Below are positions 20,194 through 40,455 of a DNA stretch of 40,455 bases, piece after piece. The notes beneath the pieces are model-generated. The model did not search any database. It was not told the origin of the DNA and saw only the letters and a program-made list of their open reading frames with translations. The stretch comes from Spirochaetaceae bacterium (GTDB lineage Bacteria > Spirochaetota > Spirochaetia > WRBN01): NCBI GenBank assembly GCA_009784515.1, contig WRBN01000005.1:1-40455 (forward strand), written 5' to 3'. The stretch's first letter is position 1. Each line of letters starts with the position of its first letter. The position numbers were made by a program, and so were the translations under genes.

Positions 20194-22629
20194 ATTATAC
20201 TAAAACCCGAATATATTCGCAACTACTACGCCCGCACTAAAACCGATAACTTTGGCAACACTATCGTAGGTGCACCCAAACAACTTCTTACAGACCATTT
20301 GGAGGAAGTTGCCAGACTCACCGCCGGCTTTTCAGCCAAACTTCAGCCTGTAATTAATAATAGTATTGATAGTAAACAATTAGGTTATTTGGCCGGCCTG
20401 TTGCACGATTACGGTAAGCTACAGTCCGCCTTTCAAAATAAGTTAAAGGGCATTAAAAGCGACTGTCCACACGCAGGCGCTGGAGCTAAGTATTTACTGG
20501 GTCAGCAAAATTTTAATCCCTTATTGAAAGACATTTTAATAAACATTATCGCCGCTCATCATGCCGGCCTTTACGATACCCTTGCCGCCGATAATAAACT
20601 GCAAAATGTTTTAAGCAAAGATTATGCCGAAACCAGTTACGCTAATAGTGTTGATTACCTTTTTTTAGAGAATGAACTTACTAAGTTTAACACAAAAGGT
20701 TCATTCTTTAACCCCGCACTAATTGATAAGGACGGGGCGGTAAATTTTAGCCTAACTTTCCTTAGCCGAATGCTCTTTAGTATGTTGGTTGATGCCGACC
20801 GTCTTGATAGTGAAGCCTTTAATGAAGAAGGTAAAGAAAATAATAAGGCCGAAAAACGTAAAGAATATAAAAAGATTAATGAACTGGCCAAAAAATTTTT
20901 GAATTATTATCAAAATAAATTTGGCAACTTAAAGCCCGATTTAGCCACCAAAGATGGCCTATTAAATAGCCAGCGTAGTGCCATTTATAACGAATGTTTA
21001 GCCGCTGCCGATAAACCCATCGGTCTGTTTAGTTTAACCGTGCCCACCGGTGGCGGTAAAACCTTAAGTAGTATGGTCTTTGCCTTAAAACATGCTATAA
21101 AGTACGGGCAAGAAAGGGTTATTTATGTAGCGCCCTTTACTGCTATTATCGACCAGAATGCGAATGAATATGCAAAAATTTTTGGTGAGGAAGAGGTATT
21201 AGCCCATTACAGCACCAACAATTATCAATTTAAAAATACTCATGAGGGCAAAGAAGAGCAAATTAACCACCGTGCCGAACTTGCTAGCGAAAACTGGGAC
21301 GCACCCATTATTGTAACCACCGCCGTGCAATTTTGGGAGAGCCTCTTTTCGGCTAATCCTCAAAAAACGCGTAAAATTCATAACATATTAAACAGTGTGG
21401 TTATTTTAGATGAATGCCAGCTACTCCCCACCCAGTATCTTATCGCTTTGCTAGAAACCCTAAAGGAACTACCTAAATACAATACCAGCGTGGTGCTGTG
21501 TACGGCTACTCAGCCGGCTTTGTTACAAAGCCATTTACCTGCAAAAATAGCTGAAAAAGGTTTTGGGTTGCCCGAAAAAGATGTTACTGAAATCATCAAT
21601 AATCCGCTGGAGCTAGCCAAACATTTTGAGCGGGTTACGATAGAGCTAAAAGAGCAAATAACTAAAGACAAGCTCATTAATGAGCTTGCAAACCTTAACC
21701 AAGTTTTGTGCATTGTTAGCACGCGTAGGTTAGCGCGTGAACTCTTTGAAGAGCTTAGCAAAGATAAAACTGAAAATGTTTATCATTTAAGTGCCTTAAT
21801 GTGTGTACAGCATAGGTTAGAGATACTGGACAAAGTAAAAGAGTGTCTTAAAAATAACCAGCCCTGCCGCCTTGTTACCACTCAACTTATTGAGGCGGGG
21901 GTAGATATAGATTTTCCGGTAGTTTACCGTTATAAGGCGGGGCTAGATAGTTTGGTACAGGCCGCAGGCCGTTGTAACCGCAATAATAAGTTACCGCAGT
22001 TGGGGAAGTTTGTTATTTTTAGCTTGACTAGCGATGAGTACAAAGAGCCGCTACTCTTTCAAAAGCAAACAGAGACCTTTGAGATGGTAAAACGTAATTT
22101 TGCTACAGAAGAATTTTTTGCACAAAGTACTATTACTTTATATTTTAAAAAACTTTATAGTAAATATAGTTTAGATGAAAAAGAGGTTCATGAACTTTGT
22201 AAATGCAGTACAAGCTTTACTAAAAGCCTCTTTGAAACCGGCTATAGGGGCTATAATTTTGCCGGTGTTGATAAAAATTTTAAAATTATTGATAATGAAC
22301 AATACTCTCTTATTATTCCTTACAATAATGCAGCTTTAGAATTAATTGAAGATTTACAAAAAATAATTGCAGAGAGAAAGCTAGGGCTAGATGAGAGGAA
22401 ACCTAGAAGTATCAGTAAAATTTTAAAAAAACTTGCTAAAAGCCAAGTTTCGGTGTATGATAATACCTTTAGTAAGCTTAATAAATTAGGTGCTTTAATT
22501 CCGCTAGCTATTAACAAAGATAGCACGATTTATATTTTAAATAAAAATTATTATACAGATTGTTATAGTAGCAACTATGGCCTAAGTGAAGAGGCCGAAG
22601 CCGGTAAGCCCGAAGATTATATAATTTAG
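20194..22629 (+). CDS. cas3: CRISPR-associated nuclease-helicase Cas3 (type I-C), non-ATG start
   Basis: Cas3 nicks and degrades DNA marked by the type I surveillance complex. In this frame the HD nuclease part has its first His in TDHLEEVA (H35) and the HD pair in GLLHDYGK (71-72). The helicase has Walker A TGGGKT (near 284), ILDECQ (near 405), and the motif VI region (LVQAAGRCNRN). The frame has no ATG, GTG or TTG before TTG 20299, yet the codons from about 20209 (EYIRNYYART...) are family-like and H35 lies just before that TTG. I therefore place the start at ATT 20194 (or ATA 20197), 4-7 bases after AGGGG; TTG 20299 would cost the metal-binding His. From 20194 the length is 811 residues. 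Confidence 0.9.
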   Translation: MILKPEYIRNYYARTKTDNFGNTIVGAPKQLLTDHLEEVARLTAGFSAKLQPVINNSIDSKQLGYLAGLLHDYGKLQSAFQNKLKGIKSDCPHAGAGAKYLLGQQNFNPLLKDILINIIAAHHAGLYDTLAADNKLQNVLSKDYAETSYANSVDYLFLENELTKFNTKGSFFNPALIDKDGAVNFSLTFLSRMLFSMLVDADRLDSEAFNEEGKENNKAEKRKEYKKINELAKKFLNYYQNKFGNLKPDLATKDGLLNSQRSAIYNECLAAADKPIGLFSLTVPTGGGKTLSSMVFALKHAIKYGQERVIYVAPFTAIIDQNANEYAKIFGEEEVLAHYSTNNYQFKNTHEGKEEQINHRAELASENWDAPIIVTTAVQFWESLFSANPQKTRKIHNILNSVVILDECQLLPTQYLIALLETLKELPKYNTSVVLCTATQPALLQSHLPAKIAEKGFGLPEKDVTEIINNPLELAKHFERVTIELKEQITKDKLINELANLNQVLCIVSTRRLARELFEELSKDKTENVYHLSALMCVQHRLEILDKVKECLKNNQPCRLVTTQLIEAGVDIDFPVVYRYKAGLDSLVQAAGRCNRNNKLPQLGKFVIFSLTSDEYKEPLLFQKQTETFEMVKRNFATEEFFAQSTITLYFKKLYSKYSLDEKEVHELCKCSTSFTKSLFETGYRGYNFAGVDKNFKIIDNEQYSLIIPYNNAALELIEDLQKIIAERKLGLDERKPRSISKILKKLAKSQVSVYDNTFSKLNKLGALIPLAINKDSTIYILNKNYYTDCYSSNYGLSEEAEAGKPEDYII

Positions 22630-22641
22630 AAGAGAGGCAAT

Positions 22642-23307
22642 ATGCAGGGAGTACAAGTTTATTTTGAGGGCCAATATGCCTGTTTTACCCGCCCCGAGCT
22701 AAAAACCGAGCGGGTAAGTTATGATGTACCCACACCGGGTGCCGTACGCAATATGCTGCAGGCTATTTATTGGAAGCCGGCAATAGAGTGGCATATCCGC
22801 TCTATCACGGTGCTAAAACCTATTCAGTTTATGACGGTAAAACGTAATGAGGTGTACGGCCAGCAAAGCGAAAGCGGTGGAAATAAGGGCGGTATCATTA
22901 TTGAGAACAACCGCGTGCAACGTAACGGTTTACTGTTAAAAGACGTGGCTTATATAGTAGACGCTTACTTTACCTTAACCGCTAAAGCAGGAACGGAAGA
23001 CACCGAAGAAAAACACTTTGCTATCATCAAACGGCGTTTACAAAATGGCCAATGCTTTGCCCAGCCCTTTTTGGGCTGCCGTGAGTTTAGTGCCTTTTTT
23101 AGAGAGGCTCAAGATGTACATACTGAGCTTGAGTTTATTAAAGCTAAAGGTGAGCAAGTTGCAGAAATTGACTATAAAGATTTAGGGTACATGCTTTATG
23201 ATGTGGATTATAGTAACCCTCAAGCTAAAGTTTTACAGCCGCGTTACTTTGAGGCAAAATTGATAAATAATGTGCTTACAATAGAGGGTGTAGAGGTAAA
23301 ACAATGA
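22642..23307 (+). CDS. cas5c: Cas5c, crRNA-processing endonuclease (type I-C)
   Basis: In type I-C, which lacks Cas6, Cas5c cuts the repeat RNA and stays on the 5' handle. The 221-residue protein shows the likely catalytic residues of the family: Y43 (AIYWKPAIEW), and the adjacent K124 and H125 (TEEKHFAIIK), corresponding to Tyr46, Lys116 and His117 described for the Bacillus halodurans enzyme. The CFTRPELKTERVSYDVPTPG start is typical. The start codon follows AGAGG at a good distance, 12 bases after cas3, and its stop overlaps cas8c as ATGA. Confidence 0.96.
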   Translation: MQGVQVYFEGQYACFTRPELKTERVSYDVPTPGAVRNMLQAIYWKPAIEWHIRSITVLKPIQFMTVKRNEVYGQQSESGGNKGGIIIENNRVQRNGLLLKDVAYIVDAYFTLTAKAGTEDTEEKHFAIIKRRLQNGQCFAQPFLGCREFSAFFREAQDVHTELEFIKAKGEQVAEIDYKDLGYMLYDVDYSNPQAKVLQPRYFEAKLINNVLTIEGVEVKQ

Positions 23308-25145
23308 TACTAAACGCTTTATACAAGTTATATAATCGGCTAGAAAGTGACCCTAATGAGCGTGAAAATATTCCTAGTAGGTCATCAAGTAAAATTAAGG
23401 TAAACTATGCTTTAGTTATTAATAAAGAAGGTAAACTCATAGCCATAAACCTTATAGGGAATGCCGAAAAAGCTAAGGTACAAAGTAAAAAACTCTTTGT
23501 GCCTTATCAACTAGACGATAGCGGCGGTATCCGCGAACGCTTTTTGTGCGGTAAAGCCAAATATTTATTAGGAGTAGATAGTAAAGATAGCAAACTTTAC
23601 GAGGCTTACTTTGAAGCTACCAAAAAACTGCACCATGCTATAGGTGATAAATTAACCAATAATAGTGAAATGCAGGCGGTGATTAAGTTTTTTGATAACT
23701 GGTTACCTGAACAAGCCTTAGAAAACAACATTATTAAAGAAAAATGGGACGATTTAGTAAAAAACCCGGCCAGCTTAGTCTTTGAGGTTGAAATGGGTGA
23801 AAGCCTTTATGTGCATGAAAATGAGGAGATTAAAGAGGCTTTTAAACAAGACTACGAGCAAAAGTTTAGCGGCAGCGATGTAACTAAAGGAACTTGCCTG
23901 ATAAGCGGGAAAGAAGATATGCCCTTAGTACGTTTGCACGAAAAAATTAAAGGTGTAGCAGGGGCGCAACCTACTGGGGCCAACCTTGTAAGTTATAACG
24001 ACACCATCTTTGAAAGTTATGGCCTTAAGGGTGGCGAAAATGCTAAAATTAGCGGGGAAACTGCCTTTAATTATGCCGCCGCCCTTAATTATTTGCTTAG
24101 TAATAGCAAGCGGTATACACGTGCTGGGAGTACCACTTTTGTTTATTGGAGTGAAATTAAAGACCCCGCCGAAGATGAAATTGATTTAATTATTGAAGCC
24201 GAAGAGACTGCCCTTGATAATTTGCTGGCTGAATATTCTCAGTTAAAGCAAAACAAGGTTACTTTAAAGGCAAGGGATAATCAAGCTTTTTACATTTTAG
24301 CCCTTATCCCCGCGGCTGGGCGGCTGGGCATTCGCTTCTTTTTAGAAAGTAATGTTGATAAATTAAAAATGAGCATTGCCAGCCATTACCAAGATATAGC
24401 TTTAGGCACACCGCCCGATGAGCCCGCCAAAGATGAAGAGAGAAAGCCCATTAAAGCTAAAAGCGGTAAAGATGGCACGAAAAAAATTAAGCAATATGTG
24501 GGGCTTTATAAACTAATGGATAGTCTTGTAAGCCAAAATATTAAGAAAAATAGAAGTGAAGCTATTGACGATAACCTAGCCGGTAAAATTGCCTACGCTA
24601 TCTTTAGCGGAATAAATTATCCGCAAAACTTATTAGTGGCGGTAATACGGGCTATTAAGGCCGATGGGCAGGTTACACGGCCGCGTGCCAGCATTATTAA
24701 AGGTGTATTAGTAAGAAATTATGATAAACGAGAGGAGATAAATAAAGTGCTTAATGAACAATTAGACGATGTGGGCTACCTGTGCGGGCGGCTCTTTGCC
24801 GTGCTAGAGGCCACTCAAAATAAAGCCATTGGCGGCGGTACTACTATTGCCGACAAATATTTGGCCACCGCAGCCAGTACGCCGGTGCGAGTTTTTCCGC
24901 AATTATTAAACCTTAACCAGCACCACAAAAGTAAAATTGGTGGTGGCCTTGCCGTTAATATTGATAAAGAGTTACAAGAAATTTTTAACCTCTTTAAAGA
25001 GGGTATGAACTTTCCTAAAACTCTCTCCACAGAGGGGCAAGGATTGTTTTACATTGGCTACTACCAAGAAAAAGCCGCTGTGTGGCAAAGATTAAAATCG
25101 GCTAAACCCGCAGATATTAACCCAACTGAAGAAGGAGCTAACTAA
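23304..25145 (+). CDS. cas8c: Cas8c, large subunit of the I-C complex (Csd1)
   Basis: Cas8c reads the PAM and holds the displaced strand in the I-C surveillance complex; an internal start in its gene often also makes a small Cas11-like subunit. The 613-residue product matches the Csd1 pattern, including the N-terminal ALYKLYNRLESDP, the zinc-like CLISGKEDMPLVRLHEKIKG region, and the LNYLLSNSKRYTRAGSTTFV stretch. Length is normal. It overlaps cas5c by 4 bases and is 2 bases from cas7. Several internal ATG codons exist in the C-terminal third (for example at 24516), but I cannot point to one with a convincing ribosome-binding site. Confidence 0.94.
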   Translation: MILNALYKLYNRLESDPNERENIPSRSSSKIKVNYALVINKEGKLIAINLIGNAEKAKVQSKKLFVPYQLDDSGGIRERFLCGKAKYLLGVDSKDSKLYEAYFEATKKLHHAIGDKLTNNSEMQAVIKFFDNWLPEQALENNIIKEKWDDLVKNPASLVFEVEMGESLYVHENEEIKEAFKQDYEQKFSGSDVTKGTCLISGKEDMPLVRLHEKIKGVAGAQPTGANLVSYNDTIFESYGLKGGENAKISGETAFNYAAALNYLLSNSKRYTRAGSTTFVYWSEIKDPAEDEIDLIIEAEETALDNLLAEYSQLKQNKVTLKARDNQAFYILALIPAAGRLGIRFFLESNVDKLKMSIASHYQDIALGTPPDEPAKDEERKPIKAKSGKDGTKKIKQYVGLYKLMDSLVSQNIKKNRSEAIDDNLAGKIAYAIFSGINYPQNLLVAVIRAIKADGQVTRPRASIIKGVLVRNYDKREEINKVLNEQLDDVGYLCGRLFAVLEATQNKAIGGGTTIADKYLATAASTPVRVFPQLLNLNQHHKSKIGGGLAVNIDKELQEIFNLFKEGMNFPKTLSTEGQGLFYIGYYQEKAAVWQRLKSAKPADINPTEEGAN

Positions 25146-25147
25146 CC

Positions 25148-26104
25148 ATGAGTAATATTGAAAACCGCTACGACTTTGTCTATTTTTTTGAGGTAACCAA
25201 CGGTAACCCCAACGGCGACCCTGATGCCGGCAACCTTCCCCGTGTTGATGTGGAGACGGGTTTAGGTATAACTACCGATGTATCTTTAAAACGTAAAGTA
25301 CGTAACTATGTAACTATGACAGATAAGCCACAAGGGGAAGACAACTATGTCTCAGAAAATAGTGAAGAAAGACGTTACAATATTTATATTAAAGAAGCGT
25401 CTGTTTTAAATCGTAATCACGATAAAGCACATGAAGCCGTTGGTAGCGATTTAAGGGAGAAAAGCCCAAATGCAACCAAAGGTAATGCTAAAACTGATAA
25501 TGCTAAAAAATGGCTTTGTAATAACTTTTATGATATTCGTACCTTTGGTGCGGTGATGAATACCGGCGCTGCCAGCGGTGTAGTGAGAGGTCCTGTGCAG
25601 TTTACTTTTAGTCAAAGCGTAGAGCCTGTTATGCCCACCGAAATTAGTGTAACCCGTATGGCTGTAACTAAAGAAGAAGATTTACAAAAAGAACGTACCA
25701 TCGGCAAAAAAACCTACATTCCCTACGGCCTGTACCGCATGGAGGGCTTTATTAGCGCTAACCAAGCCGCTGCCACAGGTTTTACCCAAGAAGATTTAGA
25801 TTTACTATGGGAGAGCTTAATTAACATGTTTGAGCAAGACCATTCGGCAAGTAGAGGCAAAATGGGAGCGAGAAAGCTGATTGTGTTTAAACACGAAAGC
25901 AAGCTAGGCAATGCCCCTGCACAAACCCTGTTTGACCTAGTACGCGTTAAACGCCTTAATGACAAAGGCGAAGCCGTGGGTGATGTGGTTACCCAAAAGG
26001 AACTGCTAAAAGATTTGCCGCCGGCAAGGTATTTTGCCGATTATAAAATTGAGGTGGAGAGCGGTAAGTTGCCTAGTGGTGTTGTGATTGAAGAGAAGCT
26101 ATAA
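25148..26104 (+). CDS. cas7: Cas7, backbone subunit of the I-C complex (Csd2)
   Basis: Cas7 polymerises along the crRNA spacer. The 318-residue protein has the family N-terminus RYDFVYFFEVTNGNPNGDPD followed by LPRVDVETGLGITTDVSLKR and the DIRTFGAVMNTG segment. GAAGGAG upstream provides a ribosome-binding site. It is the last gene of the first cas block: a strong hairpin and a new promoter follow immediately. Confidence 0.96.
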   Translation: MSNIENRYDFVYFFEVTNGNPNGDPDAGNLPRVDVETGLGITTDVSLKRKVRNYVTMTDKPQGEDNYVSENSEERRYNIYIKEASVLNRNHDKAHEAVGSDLREKSPNATKGNAKTDNAKKWLCNNFYDIRTFGAVMNTGAASGVVRGPVQFTFSQSVEPVMPTEISVTRMAVTKEEDLQKERTIGKKTYIPYGLYRMEGFISANQAAATGFTQEDLDLLWESLINMFEQDHSASRGKMGARKLIVFKHESKLGNAPAQTLFDLVRVKRLNDKGEAVGDVVTQKELLKDLPPARYFADYKIEVESGKLPSGVVIEEKL

Positions 26105-26182: not shown

Positions 26183-27805
26183 ATGAATAATATAACAACC
26201 ATTGCCAACTTGCTAACAAATACCATTGCCGTACCTAATTACCAACGAGCCTATGCGTGGCGAGAATGGCGGGACAAAGGGCAGCTTAGCCAGTTTATAG
26301 AAGACCTTGAAGAACACTATAAAGCTATTACTACAGCAGGGCTAACTACTCCTTACCACTTTGGGCATTTTTTATTTGAAAAGAATGAAGATGATAATTT
26401 TTACGTAATTGACGGCCAACAAAGACTGACAACAATTGTTATATTTTTAGCTGCCACTTCAGCTAATTTAAATAATTATAATATTAATCTTAATAAATTT
26501 TCAACCATTGGTTATGATAATCAATTTTTTATTGACTATGTGATGAATAAAACCAAAACAAATAAAGACAATTTACCAACAAAATCATCACAGCGTATAG
26601 CTAATGCCTTTGACTATTTTAACAAAAGATTACCCTACAAAGTACAAGAACATATTGAGGCTCTTGTTGATATAGTTTTAAAAGCAAGCTGTACTACGGC
26701 TCAGTTGGTTCAAAATTCTATGCAGGCTGCTCAAATGTTTATTTTTCAAAATGATAGGGGGCTGAAAGTTACCATTCTAGAAAAAATAAAAGCCCAATTC
26801 ATGCATAAGTTACATCTCTTTGGGAGTGGACAGGCCGCCGAAAACATTAATAAGCTCCAGCAACATTTTGAAAATATCTATAAAGCTCAAGCCATTATTA
26901 ATATAGATGAAGATACCGTTTTGGGGTGGTTTGCCAGAGTTTGGTATGGAAAGCTTACACCTACAATTAATGTTCATGAAGAAATTATGCAAACATTTAA
27001 CAATGAGAAATTTCAGGGAACAAAGGGTGTTGATTTTATCTTAAGGTTTTGTGAACAATTAGAAAAGTGTTTTAATAATTTAATTTATTTTTACAGAGAT
27101 GATAGTTTGAATTTTCCCAATATACGTAGTTTAATCATTTTAGAAGACGAAAGTTATCTCTTTATGCCTTTTATTATTAAAGCCTATAACTTTAATTTAC
27201 CTAAAGCTGACATTGATACTTTGTGCAATAATTTTATGGCTCTTGAAGTACGCAGACGCTTAATAGGCGGTAAAGGCTACTTGCATCAACGTTTAGGTGA
27301 TGTGTTTAATAAGTTTAATGACAACAGTAACGATATAAGCCCTATTACAGACCGAATTGAAGTTTTAAAAACGATGCGAAGCGGTCAAAAAATAGAAATA
27401 AATGAATTTAAAATTGCTGGAGACTATTGGAATAACACCAAAATAAAAGAAGCCTTAGAAGAGTCTGTTGAAGATAAAGAAAAAGTTATTAAATTTATTT
27501 TATGGCAATATGAAACAAATAACGGTGATAAATGTAATTATGATTACGATGAGCTTTCATTAGATTATATTCGTGCTAAACCCGGTAAAAATTATACTAA
27601 ATTTGACTTGTTGGGGAATTATATTTTATTAACTCCTCGAAACACTGTTAAAGGTGACTCTAGTTTTGACAAAAAGAAAAGCAGCTTTATTCATTTAAAG
27701 CAACAACTTGAAATTAGAGACGACCATCAATTAGAGGTGTGGGATAGCGAGGCCATTGAAAAACGCCATAAAAAATTAGTACAATTTGTGCTAGAGAACT
27801 TATAG
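26183..27805 (+). CDS. DUF262-domain protein (GmrSD/SspE-like), HNH part degenerate
   Basis: The 540-residue protein has the DUF262 (GmrS, ParB-like NTPase) motifs VPNYQRAYAW (17-26), DGQQRLTT (77-84) and FQNDRGLKVT (near 192). The C-terminal third looks like a DUF1524 (GmrD HNH) domain: LLGNYILLTPRNT and a conserved FDKKK, ending in the family-like WDSEAIEKRHKKLVQF. The HNH His expected in an EHIxP-type motif is replaced (LDYIRAKP), so DNA cutting through that site is doubtful. Relatives restrict modified phage DNA or sense phosphorothioate. It has its own promoter and sits between cas7 and cas4, an unusual place. Confidence 0.8.
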   Translation: MNNITTIANLLTNTIAVPNYQRAYAWREWRDKGQLSQFIEDLEEHYKAITTAGLTTPYHFGHFLFEKNEDDNFYVIDGQQRLTTIVIFLAATSANLNNYNINLNKFSTIGYDNQFFIDYVMNKTKTNKDNLPTKSSQRIANAFDYFNKRLPYKVQEHIEALVDIVLKASCTTAQLVQNSMQAAQMFIFQNDRGLKVTILEKIKAQFMHKLHLFGSGQAAENINKLQQHFENIYKAQAIINIDEDTVLGWFARVWYGKLTPTINVHEEIMQTFNNEKFQGTKGVDFILRFCEQLEKCFNNLIYFYRDDSLNFPNIRSLIILEDESYLFMPFIIKAYNFNLPKADIDTLCNNFMALEVRRRLIGGKGYLHQRLGDVFNKFNDNSNDISPITDRIEVLKTMRSGQKIEINEFKIAGDYWNNTKIKEALEESVEDKEKVIKFILWQYETNNGDKCNYDYDELSLDYIRAKPGKNYTKFDLLGNYILLTPRNTVKGDSSFDKKKSSFIHLKQQLEIRDDHQLEVWDSEAIEKRHKKLVQFVLENL

Positions 27806-30120: not shown

Positions 30121-30168
30121 TCTTAGCAGCTATGCTGCTAAGATGCAATAGGCTAGCCTATTTTTTTT
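30121..30168 (+). other. Two consecutive hairpins upstream of uma2
   Basis: TCTTAGCAGC (30121-30130) pairs with GCTGCTAAGA (30134-30143) around TAT. The self-complementary AATAGGCTAGCCTATT (30147-30162) follows and runs into eight T's. The second looks like a terminator on the plus strand that insulates the following promoter, or part of the control region of the divergent lipoprotein gene. Confidence 0.5.
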
Positions 30169-30201
30169 CAATTTTTTCAGAAAATAACCTGCTCATTTTA
30201 T

Positions 30202-30230
30202 TTGCCATGCCCTTTAACTTGTGGTATACT
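30202..30230 (+). promoter_or_regulatory. Promoter of the uma2-uma2-cas1 unit (leaderless)
   Basis: TTGCCA (30202-30207) and TATACT (30225-30230) are 17 bases apart. The ATG at 30237 comes 6 bases after the -10 box, so transcription should begin at or next to the start codon. Confidence 0.7.
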
Positions 30231-30236
30231 AAAGCC

Positions 30237-30791
30237 ATGAGCAATATCCCCCTTAACAAATACCTTACTTTAACCGACTATTTTAACCTACTTCTTGATG
30301 AACGCGGCAAACAGGAGCTTATAGATGGTATACTCACCATGTCTCCCTCTCCTAGCAGTAATCATGCCCGAATGGTGCGGCATTTAACAAAGTACCTTAT
30401 TAATTATTTTGATGATAAAACCTGTGAATTTTTTGCCGACCACGATGTTCAGCTCTTTCAAGATGAGCCGCTTATTTACCGCCCCGACTTATTAGTTGTA
30501 TGCGACCGCAGCAAAATTACCGAACAGCAAATATTAGGGGCTCCCGATTTTATTGTGGAAGTTGGTTCACCGTCCACCCTTAACAGAGATTTAACCAAAA
30601 AACGCACCGATTACGAACGCGCAGGCGTTGCCGAATATTGGGTAATGGTTAGCCCAGTGCTGGTTTATACATACTGCCTCAATGCTGATGGAAAATTTGA
30701 AGAGACCGTACACCGTAACCCCAAAAGCATAAAAGTGCATAGCTTTGATGAACTTGTTATCGATTTTAGCCGCTTACAACAAGGAATGTAA
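30237..30791 (+). CDS. Uma2-family protein 1 (PD-(D/E)XK nuclease fold)
   Basis: From ATG 30237 the protein is 184 residues. It has the family residues E27 (QELIDG), D84 (YRPDLLVV), E108 (FIVEVGSP) and a Lys pair (121-122) in DLTKKRTDYERAGV, i.e. an intact putative nuclease site. Uma2 (DUF820) proteins have the restriction-nuclease fold but their cellular role is mostly unknown. I prefer 30237 over 30132 because the upstream part is promoter DNA and the sibling protein starts with the same MS(N/S)IPLNKY. Three bases before the next gene; probably one operon with it and cas1. Confidence 0.8.
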   Translation: MSNIPLNKYLTLTDYFNLLLDERGKQELIDGILTMSPSPSSNHARMVRHLTKYLINYFDDKTCEFFADHDVQLFQDEPLIYRPDLLVVCDRSKITEQQILGAPDFIVEVGSPSTLNRDLTKKRTDYERAGVAEYWVMVSPVLVYTYCLNADGKFEETVHRNPKSIKVHSFDELVIDFSRLQQGM

Positions 30792-30794
30792 CCC

Positions 30795-31355
30795 ATGAGC
30801 AGCATACCTCTTAACAAATACTTTACTTTGCAAGATTATTTTAGCTTACCTTATAAAGGCAATGAAGAGCCGCGTTTTGAGCTAATTGATGGAATAATGA
30901 TGATGTCGCCATCGCCCAGTAATAAACATCAGCAAATTATGCTTAATTTAACTAGGCAGTTGGCCAATTTTTTTGATGATAAAGCTTGCCAAGTTTTTTT
31001 TGAATTTGATGTCAAACTCTTCCCTCGCAAAGCCACTGTTTATTGCCCAGATTTGATTGTGGTATGCAACTCAAACCAAATTACCGAGCAATATATAGAT
31101 GGCCCGCCTAACTTTATCATCGAGGTAGGCTCACCCGGCACCCTTCATAAAGATTTAACCAAAAAACGCACCGACTACGAACGCGCAGGAGTAAACGAAT
31201 ATTGGGTAGTTGATGGCGTTTATCGTGTTTATACCTATCTGCTTAATGAAAATAATAAATATGATGAAATTATTTACGAAAAACAAAAAGAAATACCTGT
31301 TAAAAGCTTTACAGGCTTAACTATTAGCTTTGAACGCCTACAAAAAATGCTATAA
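30795..31355 (+). CDS. Uma2-family protein 2 (PD-(D/E)XK nuclease fold)
   Basis: This 186-residue protein is a clear paralogue of the preceding one (same MSSIPLNKYF start and DLTKKRTDYERAGV segment). The putative site is complete: E29 (FELIDG), D86 (YCPDLIVV), E110 (FIIEVGSP) and K123/K124. It carries a few residues (NEEPRF) near position 24 that copy 1 lacks. The stop is 3 bases from cas1, so translation is likely coupled. Whether the pair helps adaptation or simply rides in the operon cannot be told from sequence. Confidence 0.8.
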   Translation: MSSIPLNKYFTLQDYFSLPYKGNEEPRFELIDGIMMMSPSPSNKHQQIMLNLTRQLANFFDDKACQVFFEFDVKLFPRKATVYCPDLIVVCNSNQITEQYIDGPPNFIIEVGSPGTLHKDLTKKRTDYERAGVNEYWVVDGVYRVYTYLLNENNKYDEIIYEKQKEIPVKSFTGLTISFERLQKML

Positions 31356-31358
31356 AAA

Positions 31359-32396
31359 ATGAAAAAACTTTTAAATACCCTTTATGTTAATCAACCCGAT
31401 GTCTACCTATCATTAGATGGGGAAAACATTGTCTTTTTAGGGGTAAATAATGTCGAAGTAAATCCTCGCCGCCCGCTGCACTTATTTGAAGGCATTGTGA
31501 GCTTTGGTTACCGCGGTGTAAGCCCAGCCCTTATGGGCAAATGCGTCGAAATGGGCATTAGCCTCAGCTTTTGTAAGCCTAGTGGCCGTTTTTTAGCCGA
31601 AGTTAGCGGCGAGGTGCGTGGTAATGTGCTCCTAAGGCGCAAACATTACCGCATAGCCGATGATGTAGAGCAAAGTTTAAGTTTAGCTAAAGTTATTACC
31701 GCAGCCAAAATAACCAATAGCCGTTGGGTGTTAGAACGAGCCACTCGCGACCATGCCCTGCAAGTTGATGGTGAAAAAATTACTAGGGCCATTACCAGCT
31801 TAAAAAAGGCTAAAGATGATGCCCTAAAGAGCCTAACCCACGAAGAACTGATGGGTATAGAGGGCAAAGCTGCCAGCAGCTACTTTTGGGCCTTTGATGA
31901 ACTTATCTTACATAGTAAAGAACATTTTTATTTTAAAGAGCGCACTAAACGCCCACCAATGGATAACGTTAATGCCCTACTCTCCTTTGTTTACAGCTTA
32001 CTTACCAAAGAGATAGCCTCTGCTTTAATTGCGGTGGGATTAGACCCTTTTGTAGGTTTTATCCATAAAGAACGGCCGGGCCGCCACTCGCTGGCCCTTG
32101 ATTTAATTGAGGAGTTACGCGCCCCAGTAGCCGATAGATTTGTACTTACCCTCATTAATACTCGCCGTGTAAATGCCAAAGGCTTTACGCAAAAAGAAAA
32201 CGGTGCTGTGATGATGGACGAAAATACTCGTAAAACCTTTTTAACCGCTTGGCAAGAGCATAAAAAAGAACAGCTTACCCACCCTTATTTAAAGGAAAAA
32301 ATTAGCTGGGGCTTGGTGCCCCATGCACAGGCTCAACTACTGGCTAGCTATTTACGCGGCGACCTTGATGGTTACCCGCCGTTTTTGTGGAAATGA
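31359..32396 (+). CDS. cas1: Cas1, spacer integrase (type I-C)
   Basis: Cas1 with Cas2 inserts new spacers at the leader end of the array. The 345-residue protein has the metal-binding residues E168 (MGIEGKAASSYF), H236 (VGFIHKERPGRHSLA) and E251 (DLIEELRAP). The N-terminus (LLNTLYVNQPDVYLSLDGEN) is typical of I-C Cas1. It has no strong ribosome-binding site and probably depends on coupling to the uma2 gene 3 bases upstream. cas2 is 1.6 kb away. Confidence 0.97.
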   Translation: MKKLLNTLYVNQPDVYLSLDGENIVFLGVNNVEVNPRRPLHLFEGIVSFGYRGVSPALMGKCVEMGISLSFCKPSGRFLAEVSGEVRGNVLLRRKHYRIADDVEQSLSLAKVITAAKITNSRWVLERATRDHALQVDGEKITRAITSLKKAKDDALKSLTHEELMGIEGKAASSYFWAFDELILHSKEHFYFKERTKRPPMDNVNALLSFVYSLLTKEIASALIAVGLDPFVGFIHKERPGRHSLALDLIEELRAPVADRFVLTLINTRRVNAKGFTQKENGAVMMDENTRKTFLTAWQEHKKEQLTHPYLKEKISWGLVPHAQAQLLASYLRGDLDGYPPFLWK

Positions 32397-32426
32397 TAGG
32401 TTACTTTAAACAACACTTTACTAAGG

Positions 32427-32455
32427 TTGACGAAATTTCTCACTTATGTTACACT
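32427..32455 (+). promoter_or_regulatory. Promoter of the DUF2130 gene
   Basis: TTGACG (32427-32432) and TACACT (32450-32455) are 17 bases apart; a ribosome-binding site AGGAG lies before ATG 32519. Confidence 0.65.
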
Positions 32456-32518
32456 CTTAAATATAAGAGGTTTTGGTGTCTTTAAAGCATCAAAGCTCAA
32501 AACTATTAGGAGTAAAAT

Positions 32519-33835
32519 ATGAATGAAATGATAATTAACTGCCCAAAATGTAACCAAACATTTAACTTGTTAGAGCAAACGACCATTGATGGCCATGTAA
32601 AGCAAGAAATTGATAAAGCTCTACAAGCTGCAAAAAACTCTTTTGATAAAGAATTAGAAACAGCTAAAAAATTAGTTACGGAAACCACGACAAATTTGTT
32701 AAAAGACGAACTACATGAAAAAGACAGGTTAGTGTTAGAGCTAAATGTTAAGCTAACTCAAATTAAAGAAGAAAAAGAAAATGCTATAAAATTGGCCATA
32801 GAAGAGACAAAAAATTTATCGAAAGATGAGCTAAGTAGCAAAACTCTAGAAATAGAGAAAATAAAGGCTGCAAATGATAAATCTATATCAGAGCTTCAGG
32901 CTAAAATTGACTTATTTGAAAGAGACAAAAAGTTAGAAATTTCTCAAATAATAAGTGAAGAACAAGAAAAACATACAGACCTAAAGGTTAAAATTGCCGA
33001 ACAAAATACAAAATTTGCAGAGATGGAGAGTAACTATAAAGGCATTATTGCATATAAAGATAAGGAGATTGAACGTGTGGAAAAGATGAAAAAATCATTA
33101 TCAACTAAAGCTTTAGGTGAATCTTTAGAGATATATTGTCAAAATGAATTTAATAAAATTTGCTCTTCGGCTTTCCCTAATGCTTTTTTTCAATAAAGAT
33201 AACGATGCCAGTAGCGGCAGTAAGGGAGATTTTATCTTTCGTTACCCTGCAGAGGGCGTTGAATCTATTTCCATCATGTTTGAATGTAAGCATGAAAGCG
33301 AAGATACTGCCGTAAAACAAAAAAACGAAAGTTTTTTAGCAAAACTAGATAAAGACCGTAACAAGGAAAAATGTGAGTATTCAATTTTAGTCTCTACCCT
33401 TGAAGCTGATAATGATTTATATAATCAAGGCATAGTTGATGTTTCCTACCTCTATCCTAAAATGTATGTTATTAGGCCGCAGTTTTTATCCTCATGATTA
33501 CCATGCTTAAAAATGCAGCTGAGAAATCTTATGAAGCCAAAAAAGAATTAGCTATAGCTAGAGAGCAGAATATAGATATTACGAATTTTGTAAATAATGT
33601 AGCTAATTTTAGAAGTAGTTTTTTCCAAACAATGGAATATGCAAATAACAAACGTGAAGAAGCTATCACGCAAATTGATAACGCTATTAGAGGTCTTGAA
33701 AATGCAAAGGAAGCATTAAGGATATTCAATGGGCATTTTAATACAATGGATAATAAATTGGAAAAATTTACTGTTGAGCGATTAATTAAGAATAATCCAA
33801 CAATGATAGAATTGTTTAATAAGCTAGAAGAATAG
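32519..33835 (+). pseudogene. DUF2130-family gene broken by two frameshifts
   Basis: Three consecutive frames together make one DUF2130 protein of about 430 residues: an N-terminal zinc-like CPKCNQTF, a long coiled coil, the conserved LGESLEIYCQNEF, then (second frame) DNDASSGSKGDFIFRY and FECKHESEDTA with a PD-(D/E)XK-like look, and (third frame, from about 33490) a helical C-terminus starting MITMLKNAAEKS. The first break is at a run of seven T's (33184-33190), where one T fewer restores AFFNKDND. The second is at five T's (33483-33487), where one T more restores PQFFILMITML. Either the gene is dead, is read by slippage, or the homopolymers are sequencing errors. Confidence 0.8.
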
Positions 33836-33880
33836 CTCGATAATTATTATAGATTTTCTTATTTTTATTGTACTTTTTAG

Positions 33881-33886
33881 TATACT
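33881..33886 (+). promoter_or_regulatory. -10 box ahead of the miniature CRISPR unit
   Basis: TATACT (33881-33886) ends one base before the first diverged repeat. The -35 region is weak (T-rich, TTCTTA near 33856). Transcription would start inside the 5' end of the repeat. Confidence 0.45.
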
Positions 33887-33887
33887 T

Positions 33888-33984
33888 GTCGTGCTTTTAC
33901 CAGCACGTGAATTGAAACAGTAATGTGTTTTTTAAAATGCAATGAATTATATCGTCCCTCTATCGAGGGGCGTGAATTAAGTTC
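33888..33984 (+). CRISPR. Miniature CRISPR unit with two diverged repeats and one 35-base spacer
   Basis: The first diverged repeat (33888-33918, 31 bases) begins GTCGTGCT, has the stem GTGCT/AGCAC, and ends with the array's exact 3' tag GTGAATTGAAAC. A 35-base spacer (33919-33953) follows, the usual length of the main array. The second diverged repeat (33954-33984) begins GTCCCTC, has the stem CCCTC/GAGGG, and ends GTGAATTAAG. Both keep a hairpin although the stem bases differ completely from the main repeat. The unit lies between the DUF2130 gene and cas2, its end 4 bases from the cas2 -35 box. Confidence 0.75.
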
Positions 33985-33988
33985 TTAC

Positions 33989-34016
33989 TTGACAGAAACA
34001 GGAATTATGCTAAACT
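33989..34016 (+). promoter_or_regulatory. Promoter of cas2 (leaderless)
   Basis: TTGACA (33989-33994) and TAAACT (34011-34016) are 16 bases apart. The cas2 ATG at 34023 is 6 bases after the -10 box, so the message should begin at the start codon. No ribosome-binding site is present. Confidence 0.7.
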
Positions 34017-34022
34017 GAAACT

Positions 34023-34307
34023 ATGCTAATACTCATAGCCTACGATGTAAACACCGAAACTCCAGCCGGCAAGCGCCGCCTAAGACAAGTGGCCAAAGTT
34101 TGTGTCAATTACGGTCAGCGCGTGCAGAATTCCGTTTTTGAGTGCGAACTTGATAACGCTTTGTTCATCAAAGTAAAGCATCAATTAGAAAATATCATTG
34201 ATAAAGAAACCGACAGCCTGCGCTTTTACCGCTTAGGAAATAATCCACAAATTGAGCATATAGGTGCTAAAGAGAGTTATGACCCTAAGGGCATACTTAT
34301 TATTTAA
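34023..34307 (+). CDS. cas2: Cas2, adaptation protein (type I-C)
   Basis: Cas2 is the dimeric core of the Cas1-Cas2 integrase. The 94-residue protein starts MLILIAYDVNTETPAGKRRL, with the conserved Asp at residue 8, and contains GQRVQNSVFECELD and a C-terminal strand region. Length is normal for I-C. It has its own promoter, separate from cas1, directly after a miniature CRISPR unit, and is the last gene before the leader. Confidence 0.96.
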   Translation: MLILIAYDVNTETPAGKRRLRQVAKVCVNYGQRVQNSVFECELDNALFIKVKHQLENIIDKETDSLRFYRLGNNPQIEHIGAKESYDPKGILII

Positions 34308-34508: not shown

Positions 34509-37500
34509 GTCGCGCTCCGCATGGAGCGTGTGAATTGAAACATTTAAATTTCCTTTATAGATTTTAAAAATTGCGTCGCGCTCCGCATGGAGCGTGTGAA
34601 TTGAAACTTAAAACGCATACGTTATCTATCGCAGCAGGGGCGTCGCGCTCCGCATGGAGCGTGTGAATTGAAACTTTTGTTTTAGATTACTTTAACAGTT
34701 GGCTTAGATTGGTCGCGCTCCGCATGGAGCGTGTGAATTGAAACAATACCTTTATACCTAGCGGCCAGTACAGTGAATGTCGCGCTCCGCATGGAGCGTG
34801 TGAATTGAAACAAACCAAAGGAAGCCGATACCTTAATAAAACGCTGTCGCGCTCCGCATGGAGCGTGTGAATTGAAACATAACATCAGCAGGTACATAAA
34901 TAGCGTACCTGTCGGTCGCGCTCCGCATGGAGCGTGTGAATTGAAACACGTTATACAAAGGGCCAACTATAGTAATTGAGGTCGCGCTCCGCATGGAGCG
35001 TGTGAATTGAAACGGTATAGCCTTAAAGGGCCCCCCCCAAAAAAAAAGGTCGCGCTCCGCATGGAGCGTGTGAATTGAAACTATTAATACTAAGTCTACA
35101 ATCTTTTAATTTTTTGGTCGCGCTCCGCATGGAGCGTGTGAATTGAAACCTGTTGTAGTGCTGTATATTTACCACTTTTTGAGGTGTCGCGCTCCGCATG
35201 GAGCGTGTGAATTGAAACCTGCCGGCACGTAGCGCTTACCCCGCCAGCTGGGAGGTCGCGCTCCGCATGGAGCGTGTGAATTGAAACTCTAAAGGCGGTG
35301 GGTAAAGCCGACCAGCTTACGCGGGTCGCGCTCCGCATGGAGCGTGTGAATTGAAACTACGCCCGCAAAGCACGGGCGGCATTTGTAGAGGGTCGCGCTC
35401 CGCATGGAGCGTGTGAATTGAAACATTATATTGCTTTGGTTGCTGGTGGAAAACTGATGTCGCGCTCCGCATGGAGCGTGTGAATTGAAACAATAGACAG
35501 TCTGTTTTCTGCCATTGCTTCATCTAGTCGCGCTCCGCATGGAGCGTGTGAATTGAAACTTTTGTGTGTATATTTTTATTGTTCGTAATAAATGTCGCGC
35601 TCCGCATGGAGCGTGTGAATTGAAACTGTCAATATGATACGAAGTAGCTCCGGGTACTGCGTCGCGCTCCGCATGGAGCGTGTGAATTGAAACTCTTTAA
35701 AGATTTGCCGGCCAATCTTTTGCTCATTCTCGGTCGCGCTCCGCATGGAGCGTGTGAATTGAAACTTTAGATTTCAGCGCGCGGATAGCTGGAACGGAAA
35801 GTCGCGCTCCGCATGGAGCGTGTAAATTGAAACCTTATTGAAGTTTTCCGCTTTTATCGTAATATGCTGAGGTCGCGCTCCGCATGGAGCGTGTGAATTG
35901 AAACAGTATTTTATCGAAAAATAACACCGAAAACTATGTCGCGCTCCGCATGGAGCGTGTGAATTGAAACCTTGAAAGTAGACTTTAAAGATAAGCTGCT
36001 TTAATTAAGTCGCGCTCCGCATGGAGCGTGTGAATTGAAACCCTAATATTGTCTTTGTTCTGGTAATGAATAAAACTATGGTCGCGCTCCGCATGGAGCG
36101 TGTGAATTGAAACCTTTACATTAATAATATTGATAAAGAAGTAGCTAAAAAAAGTCGCGCTCCGCATGGAGCGTGTGAATTGAAACGGCTTACTGTGGCC
36201 ACAGAAAAAGCCAAAAATTTATACCGTCGCGCTCCGCATGGAGCGTGTGAATTGAAACCCTTTGTTTGCCTTAATTACGGGTGATATGCCTATTATGGTC
36301 GCGCTCCGCATGGAGCGTGTGAATTGAAACCCTTTGTTTGCCTTAATTACGGGTGATATGCCTATTATGGTCGCGCTCCGCATGGAGCGTGTGAATTGAG
36401 GTCGCGCTCCGCATGGAGCGTGTGAATTGAAACTAAAATAGAATTTAGAGCAGATAAACACCATAAAGGTCGCGCTCCGCATGGAGCGTGTGAATTGAAA
36501 CCCTATTTTAGGCGGGGTAAGATAAGCCATAATAATGGCGTCGCGCTCCGCATGGAGCGTGTGAATTGAAACGCTAGAGGCGCTATCACCGCTAAGCACT
36601 ATAAAAGGTCGCGCTCCGCATGGAGCGTGTGAATTGAAACACCATCGGTGCTAGGGGCAACTAGGGTAAACGTAAGTCGCGCTCCGCATGGAGCGTGTGA
36701 ATTGAAACATTGGGTACTTTATTTTTTGTTAGATGATTATTTTGTCGCGCTCCGCATGGAGCGTGTGAATTGAAACCGTGAATGGCATGAAATGGCCGAA
36801 CATGACGATGTCGCGCTCCGCATGGAGCGTGTGAATTGAAACCGTGAATGGCATGAAATGGCCGAACATGACGATGTCGCGCTCCGCATGGAGCGTGTGA
36901 ATTGAAACCTTTTCTAATGCCATAAAGCCAATATTTACAGAGGGGTCGCGCTCCGCATGGAGCGTGTGAATTGAAACCTTTATACCTAGAGTTAATAGAT
37001 AATTATTTGCAGTCGCGCTCCGCATGGAGCGTGTGAATTGAAACTTATTGCATAATTATTTATATCAAAGTTATCTTGTCGCGCTCCGCATGGAGCGTGT
37101 GAATTGAAACAAACATTTGTTTGATTTTATTATCCAATTCTTCCAGTCGCGCTCCGCATGGAGCGTGTGAATTGAAACCTTTAAATAATTTGGCTAATAA
37201 TATTGCGCAATCATGGAGTCGCGCTCCGCATGGAGCGTGTGAATTGAAACTATTGCTAAAGTCAATCATTCCCCGCCAGCGCCTAGGTCGCGCTCCGCAT
37301 GGAGCGTGTGAATTGAAACTAATTTAGTTGCTGATGATGTTAATATTAATATAGGTCGCGCTCCGCATGGAGCGTGTGAATTGAAACTCAAGATTTTATG
37401 GCCAGTAATAGGCACAGGTTGTGTCGCGCTCCGCATGGAGCGTGTGAATTGAAACTTAAGGCTGCTAACGGGGATAACTAATGAATAATATTGTCGCGCT

Positions 37501-40317
37501 CCGCATGGAGCGTGTGAATTGAAACACTTCTCATGGCGTCAAGGGGGGCAATAAGGTTATATCTGGTCGCGCTCCGCATGGAGCGTGTGAATTGAAACAT
37601 CTAAGAGGTCGTTTCGCCAGAGCAGATAAACTGGTCGCGCTCCGCATGGAGCGTGTGAATTGAAACTGCTTTTAAAAATAAAGAGATAACCTATGGCTAT
37701 AGGGTCGCGCTCCGCATGGAGCGTGTGAATTGAAACAATTTGCTTTTTGGGCCACGGTAAATACAGCCGAGTCGCGCTCCGCATGGAGCGTGTGAATTGA
37801 AACCATTATTAGTTAAACCCACTAACCAAATAGAAAATGTCGCGCTCCGCATGGAGCGTGTGAATTGAAACTGATGACATTTAGCCACATCAAGCGTACT
37901 AGCCAAGTCGCGCTCCGCATGGAGCGTGTGAATTGAAACACTCTCCATACTCTCCATATCTAAAAGTTACCACTTTGCGTCGCGCTCCGCATGGAGCGTG
38001 TGAATTGAAACTCCTGCTCCAGCTGCACTTTACATATCATTGGAAAACGTCGCGCTCCGCATGGAGCGTGTGAATTGAAACAATATCACTGGCGCAGCGT
38101 GCTAAATATGTTTATGTCGCGCTCCGCATGGAGCGTGTGAATTGAAACTAATTACGGTAGCTACCGCCGCAAAGGGTGGTATGTCGCGCTCCGCATGGAG
38201 CGTGTGAATTGAAACTGGCGGCAATGGTAGAGGATGGCCGGCTAAGGGCTAGTCGCGCTCCGCATGGAGCGTGTGAATTGAAACAAATCTGTTGAGGGGG
38301 TACGCTTAGGGTTAGAAGATGTCGCGCTCCGCATGGAGCGTGTGAATTGAAACACTATATAATTGAAAATAAATTTATAAAAGCAAAGTCGCGCTCCGCA
38401 TGGAGCGTGTGAATTGAAACTACGTGCATTTAATTGATAGTGTAACAAGTGAAGGTCGCGCTCCGCATGGAGCGTGTGAATTGAAACAACATTATGGCCG
38501 AAGAGCAAGCAAGAAAATTACTAGTCGCGCTCCGCATGGAGCGTGTGAATTGAAACAAACTTAATCCTAAACTAGACGAAGCTAAACTAAGTCGCGCTCC
38601 GCATGGAGCGTGTGAATTGAAACCTTTATACCTAGAGTTAATAGATAATTATTTGCAAAGTCGCGCTCCGCATGGAGCGTGTGAATTGAAACCTAGTTCG
38701 TCAAACTGGGCAAATGTTTTGGCACTGGTCGCGCTCCGCATGGAGCGTGTGAATTGAAACTTTTATCACGCAATCACCTATATTGGTGGGTGATAAGTCG
38801 CGCTCCGCATGGAGCGTGTGAATTGAAACACTCCCCTACTCATTATGCAAAAATGCTGCGCCTCAGCGTCGCGCTCCGCATGGAGCGTGTGAATTGAAAC
38901 TATTCTACCGGCCAATTTATTTTAGTACCGAGGTAGTCGCGCTCCGCATGGAGCGTGTGAATTGAAACCGGTGACAGAAGTGCCGCAGGCTACCATCCGC
39001 CGGTCGCGCTCCGCATGGAGCGTGTGAATTGAAACATCAGATCAAGCTATACTATCACGTGAAATTTACGTCGCGCTCCGCATGGAGCGTGTGAATTGAA
39101 ACTTTTGCTGGGCAAAGAAAAAGGGCCGCGTTTAAGTCGCGCTCCGCATGGAGCGTGTGAATTGAAACTTAGCTACTCCTGTATCTATAGCAAATTCAGT
39201 TAGGTCGCGCTCCGCATGGAGCGTGTGAATTGAAACGGGTATAGCTATCTACTTGGAATGTAATAATTCCAGTCGCGCTCCGCATGGAGCGTGTGAATTG
39301 AAACACTCTTCTAGTCATTGGTGCTCCCTAGCCTTAAGCTGTCGCGCTCCGCATGGAGCGTGTGAATTGAAACATAATTGATGACCCAGATGAAGAGCAA
39401 CCGCTTAAAAGTCGCGCTCCGCATGGAGCGTGTGAATTGAAACTAGAAATATCAGTATGCAATCAAACTTTATCAGAAGTCGCGCTCCGCATGGAGCGTG
39501 TGAATTGAAACATCGAGGGGATGTCTTCAGGAATTTTTTTACAGCAGTCGCGCTCCGCATGGAGCGTGTGAATTGAAACTCGAATGTCGAATGCGTTGTT
39601 ACGAAAGTCAAATAGTCGCGCTCCGCATGGAGCGTGTGAATTGAAACTCAGGATACACGCAAAATAATAACATTAGCACACGTCGCGCTCCGCATGGAGC
39701 GTGTGAATTGAAACCTCCGGAGAAGGCGGAAGCGCCACCAGCGAGTAGGTCGCGCTCCGCATGGAGCGTGTGAATTGAAACCTCGATGTGTCCGGTAACG
39801 TTTCCGAAGAACGCAGTCGCGCTCCGCATGGAGCGTGTGAATTGAAACTGGACAAGATTAAAGGAGGGGTTGGCCGAAATAAGTCGCGCTCCGCATGGAG
39901 CGTGTGAATTGAAACACTGACGGGGCAACTGGTGCAGTTTCTAGTTTAAGTCGCGCTCCGCATGGAGCGTGTGAATTGAAACTATTTCTTCGTCTGTTTC
40001 ACTATCAATTAAGTGCGTCGCGCTCCGCATGGAGCGTGTGAATTGAAACAGAATATCAATAGCATAATCGGTATTAAATGCTTGTCGCGCTCCGCATGGA
40101 GCGTGTGAATTGAAACAGTAAATTGCTAGCGCTTGTTTTAGAACTACGTTTGTCGCGCTCCGCATGGAGCGTGTGAATTGAAACACCGTATGCAGGGCTT
40201 CCCTAGTAAGGCGCTGCGTCGCGCTCCGCATGGAGCGTGTGAATTGAAACACCTATTCCTTTCGATTGATAATTGCGGGGCGGCGTCGCGCTCCGCATGG
40301 AGCGTGTGAATTGAAAC
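34509..40317 (+). CRISPR. Type I-C CRISPR array, about 86 repeats of 33 bases
   Basis: The repeat begins GTCGCGCTCCGCATGGAGCG and ends TGTGAATTGAAAC, with the stem CGCTCC/GGAGCG around GCAT. I count 86 copies at about 68-base spacing; spacers are mostly 33-39 bases. The repeats are almost invariant: the copy at 35801 has one change (TGTAAATTG), and the copy at 36370 lacks its last three bases and its spacer. The leader is at the left, next to cas2. Two repeat-spacer units are tandemly duplicated (36226-36369 and 36744-36875). One spacer (36502-36539) matches pstC of this window. Reading the minus strand of repeats gives spurious protein frames that are not genes. Confidence 0.98.
36502..36539 (+). 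other. Spacer matching the pstC gene in this window
   Basis: Bases 36503-36539 are the exact reverse complement of 1465-1501 in pstC; only the first of the 38 spacer bases differs. The match is 37 of 38. Confidence 0.9.
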
Positions 40318-40403
40318 TAGATTACTCGCATGTGTAAGTGTCAAGTAATTCAAGAACAAATAGCTTGTTTTTTTAGTAGAGGTGTAGTGCCGATGCCCTG
40401 ATG

Positions 40404-40431
40404 TATCCTATGCTCGTTATAGTATAGGATA
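40404..40431. repeat. Inverted repeat beyond the array
   Basis: TATCCTAT (40404-40411) pairs with ATAGGATA (40424-40431) around a 12-base loop, in the 138 bases after the last repeat. These bases also hold a weak AACAA/TTGTT hairpin with a T-run near 40355-40375 that could terminate the pre-crRNA. No gene is visible. Confidence 0.45.
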
Positions 40432-40455
40432 TATTTTAAAAGTTCAAGTTCAAAC

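Follow-up and report, generated by a model that had tools for sequence, protein, structure and literature searches.

A candidate CreA-like guide beside a predicted nuclease gene in a spirochaete type I-C CRISPR locus

Regulatory CRISPR units and the present locus

CreTA, a type VIII toxin-antitoxin system, has been described in Haloarcula hispanica, H. hubeiense and Acinetobacter (PMC8501985, PMC9458426, PMC10097628). In the proven match between CreA and its promoter in H. hubeiense, positions 1-5 and 7-11 of the guide are needed whereas mismatches at positions 6 and 12 are tolerated, and the guide can be co-transcribed from the repressed promoter (PMC8501985). CreA units also show a pattern of decay, in that psiR1 retains the Cas5-binding handle and psiR2 does not (PMC9458426). 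A CRISPR-repressed protein toxin, CrePA, was reported by Shu et al. in 2025, and in the account given by a review CreP is typically a KilA-N domain protein that acts on FtsZ; that 2025 review treats CRISPR-repressed protein toxins with other CRISPR types or cellular targets as an open question (PMC12737573). CreR guides repress cas promoters in types I-B, I-E and V-A (PMC13131331), and phages encode solitary repeats, termed Racr, that act as RNA anti-CRISPRs (PMC10651486).

The locus described here is present on a 40,455-nucleotide stretch of contig WRBN01000005.1 from a Spirochaetaceae bacterium (GCA_009784515.1), hereafter the window (Table 1). As in CreTA, a spacer is found between two degenerate repeats outside of the array, its seed (positions 1-5 and 7-11) matches the promoter of a neighbouring gene, the guide gene is downstream of the target gene, and the Cas5-binding handle is present in psiR1 and lost in psiR2. 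Unlike CreTA, where the regulated creT is a small toxic RNA, the regulated gene proposed here encodes a nuclease-like protein of 400+ residues; moreover, the effector is of type I-C, the seed match extends to position 18, and the PAM is CTT rather than TTC. The similarity to CrePA is that a CreA-like guide appears to let a CRISPR effector repress an adjacent protein-coding gene. In contrast to a typical CreP, the protein is a predicted PD-(D/E)XK-like nuclease of the DUF2130 family with no KilA-N domain in Pfam, and its gene is broken in the assembly. Standalone-repeat regulatory mini-arrays, some of them aimed at cargo genes, are reportedly the subject of a 2023 NAR paper by Shmakov et al. 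The unit resembles CreR and other standalone repeats (Liu et al. 2023) in its position within a cas locus and in its partial match to a promoter, but the target is a cargo promoter instead of a cas promoter, and type I-C lies outside of the CreR list given above. Racr likewise consists of solitary repeat-like sequence outside an array, whereas the present unit is chromosomal, lies within the cas locus, and combines a pair of hairpins with a spacer that has a target of its own.

By kind, then, the unit belongs to a known type of device, the CreA-like guide, in a new setting of type I-C and nuclease cargo. Judged from the sequence, it is likely that the mini-unit is a CreA-like guide that represses the DUF2130 cargo nuclease through Cascade, in the manner of CrePA. 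Such a locus represents a concrete and testable candidate of type I-C, with a nuclease in place of an FtsZ-acting KilA-N protein, and would also suggest a role for the DUF2130 family. Along with a unit in a second genome of the family (G001, below), it suggests that type I-C effectors in this spirochaete family use regulatory guides, adding a subtype to those in the CreR list of PMC13131331.

Organization of the cassette and the mini-CRISPR unit

A complete type I-C locus lies within the window, comprising cas3, cas5-cas8c-cas7, cas4, cas1, cas2 and a type I-C repeat. The gap between cas1 and cas2 is 1626 bp, as compared to 2-21 bp in 25 other I-C loci, indicating that positions 32397-34022 are an inserted cassette. 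This cassette of ~1.6 kb, absent from the 25 loci, is arranged in the order promoter, DUF2130 gene, mini-CRISPR unit and cas2 promoter. Other foreign-looking cargo is also found between the cas genes, namely a GmrSD/DUF262-type protein and two tandem Uma2-like (PADLOC PDC-S03) proteins at 26183-27805 and 30132-31355, and no guide unit was seen for this GmrSD/DUF262-type or Uma2-like cargo. At the apparent N-terminus of cas3 (20194-20299) there is no ATG, GTG or TTG codon, the frame opening at an ATT (20194) that is preceded by a GGGG motif; this may be a rare start codon, a mutation or an assembly error. Within 36226-36433, the array has a duplicated repeat-spacer unit and, at 36370-36433, two repeats joined without a spacer.

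Table 1. Positions of the genes, CRISPR elements and predicted sites in the window
Feature	Position	Strand	Remarks
cas3	from about 20194		
cas5-cas8c-cas7	22642..26104	+	intact I-C effector (Cascade) genes; cas5 22642, cas8c 23304, cas7 25148
cas4	from 28213		
cas1 (type I-C)	31359..32396	+	
Proposed target (protospacer)	32388..32422	-	guide nt 1-18 against 32405-32422; remainder unrelated
PAM position	32423..32425	-	5'-CTT-3' (plus-strand AAG)
Predicted DUF2130 promoter	32427..32455	+	TTGACG-17-TACACT; TG before -10 (extended -10)
DUF2130 gene	32519..33835	+	proposed regulated gene; Pfam: DUF2130 only
DUF2130 broken frame	32519-33196, 33144-33497, 33494-33835	+	three ORFs; two frameshifts
Weak candidate mini-unit promoter	33816..33844	+	TTAATA-17-GATAAT; consensus match only
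psiR1	33888..33918	+	first degenerate I-C repeat, 31 nt; GTCGTGCTTTTACCAGCACGTGAATTGAAAC; 6-bp hairpin
Predicted guide 5' handle	33908..33918	+	TGAATTGAAAC; same as array handle
Guide spacer	33919..33953	+	35 nt; AGTAATGTGTTTTTTAAAATGCAATGAATTATATC; length inside array-spacer range
psiR2	33954..33984	+	second degenerate repeat; GTCCCTCTATCGAGGGGCGTGAATTAAGTTC; decayed handle (TGAATTAAGTTC)
Predicted cas2 promoter	33989..34016	+	TTGACA-16-TAAACT; directly after psiR2
cas2	34023..34307	+	
Main CRISPR array	34509..40455	+	86 repeats in window; goes on in contig C51

The original prediction had proposed two repeat-like elements around a 35-base spacer, across cas2 from the real array, with stems that both still pair, and each of these features is borne out by the sequence. 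Both elements fold, psiR1 at -7.6 kcal/mol (z -2.5) and psiR2 at -13.9 kcal/mol (z -4.2), the psiR2 hairpin extending to 8 bp if the last base of the spacer is counted. A pair of elements that each consist of a hairpin and GTGAATT, one spacer apart, occurs once in the window and in 0.1% of simulated windows. The further claim that neither stem has bases in common with the main one holds for psiR2, whose CCCTC/GAGGG stem is truly different from the main array stem of the window, but fails for psiR1, whose stem (CGTGCT/AGCACG) has 5/6 and 4/6 bases in common with that of the array (CGCGCT/AGCGTG). Relative to the array stem, one C-G pair of psiR1 has become T-A by a two-sided change, one G-T has become G-C, and two loop-side pairs are gone. 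The CCCTC/GAGGG stem of psiR2 is identical to the core stem of the array repeat of G001 (L015 array), and the mini-unit may thus have descended from a G001-like I-C repeat. A search of Rfam with the mini-unit gave no match.

The last 12 nucleotides of psiR1, GTGAATTGAAAC, are exact array-repeat sequence, and genome-wide the only exact copies of this 12-mer are those in psiR1, the array, and the continuation of the array on contig C51; other ectopic handles in the genome are one-mismatch matches only, at chance level. Processing by Cas5d yields an I-C handle of 11 nt. Retention of the handle in psiR1 and its decay in psiR2 is the pattern suited to a guide that takes its handle from the first repeat and its 3' hairpin from the second.

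As to transcription of the unit, a TATACT box at 33881-33886 had been noted directly before it, but the promoter scan found no -35 partner for it, and a transcript from this box would begin within the first hairpin because the box ends one base before psiR1; it is thus probably not the promoter of the mini-unit. Nor did the scan find a strong promoter immediately upstream of the unit. It is possible that the mini-unit is co-transcribed from the repressed DUF2130 promoter instead of from a promoter of its own, the arrangement noted above for H. hubeiense.

The seed match at the predicted DUF2130 promoter and its interpretation

When the window was scanned for seed matches of the type I kind, a single site stood out. 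The first 18 nucleotides of the guide, AGTAAtGTGTTtTTTAAA, are identical at 16 of 18 bases to the minus-strand sequence AGTAAaGTGTTgTTTAAA (32422-32405), with identity at positions 1-5, 7-11 and 13-18; positions 6 and 12 are the sole mismatches. In type I guides, these two positions are flipped out and left unpaired in the complex. Pattern searches found this to be the single genome-wide site, other than the guide itself, with a 16/18 match and mismatches at 6 and 12, and a control search with the reversed pattern found zero genomic sites. A site on contig C33 matches at 17/18 bases, but there position 8 is the one mismatched and the PAM position reads AAG. The guide spacer is AT-rich, making chance matches likelier. 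Of dinucleotide-shuffled spacers, 2/20,000 reached 16 matching bases in the cassette, and 2/1,500 did so in the window. For comparison, the best match to the window among the 84 array spacers scanned was 13 bases. The PAM position is one base from the -35 box (TTGACG, 32427) of the predicted DUF2130 promoter. The PAM sequences compare as CTT at the mini-unit target, TTT at the G001 target, and TTC in a studied I-C system (PMC8406640). No PAM could be derived from the array spacers, for which one blastn search against phages gave only a 67% match and for which IMG/VR yielded no hit in four exact scans.

The match of the spacer points to the DUF2130 promoter and leads to a revision of the original prediction on several points. 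No convincing seed match had been seen in the promoters, nor any toxin-sized gap, whereas there is a 16/18 match at the promoter of DUF2130, the gene that immediately precedes the unit. Candidate targets in the cas promoters were rejected, as the matches there were of 5 bases only. The central proposal, that the unit is a diverged guide of the CreA or CreR kind and not a decayed remnant, gains support from the unique seed match with mismatches at 6 and 12 and from the differing fates of the psiR1 and psiR2 handles. The regulatory guide is retained from that proposal, but its probable target is the promoter of a cargo gene and not of a cas gene.

Based on these observations, we infer that a transcript of the mini-unit would be cut by Cas5 at both hairpins to give a crRNA-like RNA with a normal 5' handle, beginning UGAAUUGAAAC-AGUAAUG and ending past the psiR2 hairpin. 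The intact Cascade of the type I-C locus (Cas5-Cas8c-Cas7) would take up this guide and be led to the adjacent DUF2130 promoter. In Xanthomonas, interference and cleavage by a type I-C system needed 27 or more matching bp (PMC8406640), and so the match here, with 16 bases over positions 1-18, should permit binding but be too short for cleavage, such that Cascade would sit beside the -35 box and repress DUF2130. The DUF2130 gene would accordingly be off in a cell with a working CRISPR system, and loss of Cascade or its block by an anti-CRISPR would release the protein as a toxin or fallback nuclease. That DUF2130 is specifically a Cascade-gated fallback nuclease, freed by an anti-CRISPR or Cascade loss for abortive infection or back-up restriction, is a more tentative proposition. 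The interval between 32456 and 32519 may also encode a small toxic RNA.

Other origins of the unit and of the match can be envisaged. The unit may be an array relic, in which decayed repeats and an old spacer were left by a rearrangement of the cassette or of cas2 and the promoter match arose by chance. Degenerate repeats are indeed known near array ends, for instance at position 14262 of a Paenibacillus dendritiformis locus (L039), and AT-rich spacers give matches of at least 16 bases somewhere in the window at about 0.1%. A relic is nonetheless unlikely, as both stems pair, the handle is perfect in psiR1, where it is needed, and lost in psiR2, where it is not, and the seed match has the periodic mismatches of type I systems and falls at a promoter of the same cassette. 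A full phage match to the spacer had been named as the sign of a remnant; none was found, with no exact 22-mer match in IMG/VR and none significant among phages, and a phage origin of the spacer was rejected.

It is also conceivable, since the site and the start of the spacer are on opposite strands and at both ends of the 1.6-kb insertion between cas1 and cas2, that the two 18-mers represent terminal inverted repeats that bound a mobile DUF2130 cassette, rather than a guide and its target. This is very improbable given that the match begins exactly at spacer nucleotide 1 and stops short of the repeat, that the mismatches are exactly at 6 and 12, and that the supposed terminus is flanked by CRISPR repeats; furthermore, the genome has no third copy of the 18-mer, and no transposase was found. 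The least probable reading is that the unit is a guide of the CreR type that controls the cas genes and not the cargo gene. Repression of cas promoters is what CreR guides do in other subtypes, and G001, of the same family, carries such a solo repeat ahead of its cas5, but here no match close to the cas3 promoter exceeds 5 bases (20170, PAM TTT), which is chance level, and the 16-base match is to the DUF2130 promoter, although a bound Cascade might also stop read-through from cas1. The CreA-like guide acting on DUF2130 remains the preferred reading.

The DUF2130 protein and related loci

The DUF2130 protein has a zinc-ribbon-like N-terminus, a coiled coil, and a PD-(D/E)XK-like core. Relatives with ~38-46% identity, all free of internal stops, are found in a further 20 genomes from the phylum sample. 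The motifs GE, KGD and E-M-K are invariant in 11 relatives, and the pieces in the window retain GE, KGD and E-C-K; GE/KGD/E-M-K is a PD-(D/E)XK signature. The best PDB matches to an AlphaFold model made for one relative (pLDDT 76) are restriction endonucleases, namely EcoT38I, BstEII and the small subunit of BspD6I, with fold-match probabilities of 0.97, 0.96 and 0.80, respectively, although these matches are weak (best E 7e-3). Motifs and model both lead to the prediction that the protein is a PD-(D/E)XK nuclease. PADLOC, NCBIfam and PHROGs gave no name for the DUF2130 pieces, and no known function of the family was found.

The two frameshifts imply that the effector may be dead, or that the assembly is wrong. 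The frame breaks are close to T-runs at 33184 and 33483, and the remaining sequence is well kept. An assembly error may account for them; however, the other 28.7 kb of coding sequence contains 17 homopolymers of at least 7 with zero such breaks, and the evidence thus leans towards a real and recent lesion.

DUF2130 homologues elsewhere in the phylum have no CRISPR repeats within their 1.5-kb flanks, arguing that the family is not a dedicated CRISPR partner. A search of 12 genomes of Clostridia and Bacilli gave no DUF2130 match, but the control likewise gave no match anywhere. The family is present on many plasmids, as found with a query that began with four stray letters (MTKK).

Similar units, solo repeats included, were not seen beside Cas1 relatives of 53-61% identity, in the Clostridia and Bacilli I-C loci examined, or in those further spirochaete I-C loci examined that have an array. 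G001, the one additional genome of the family that the searches met, also carries an I-C-type locus, in which a solo perfect repeat (L116:6455-6486) lies between cas3 and cas5 behind a TATACT box, and is followed by a spacer and then by a terminator-like hairpin (L116:6455-6592; G001:C1:578454-578591). Across its positions 1-5 and 7-16 (15 bases), this spacer is identical to the sequence starting at L116:6556, the sole mismatch in the stretch being at position 6, with TTT as the PAM, and 0/20,000 shuffles equalled this match in the intergenic region. The matched site is upstream of a promoter-like sequence, TTGACA-17-TAGAAT, before cas5. Such an arrangement is suggestive of CreR regulation, and the G001 unit is probably a type I-C CreR. 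In the P. dendritiformis I-C locus mentioned above, the array is interrupted by a short gene pair (L039:11868-12622) that includes a zeta-toxin-like P-loop protein.
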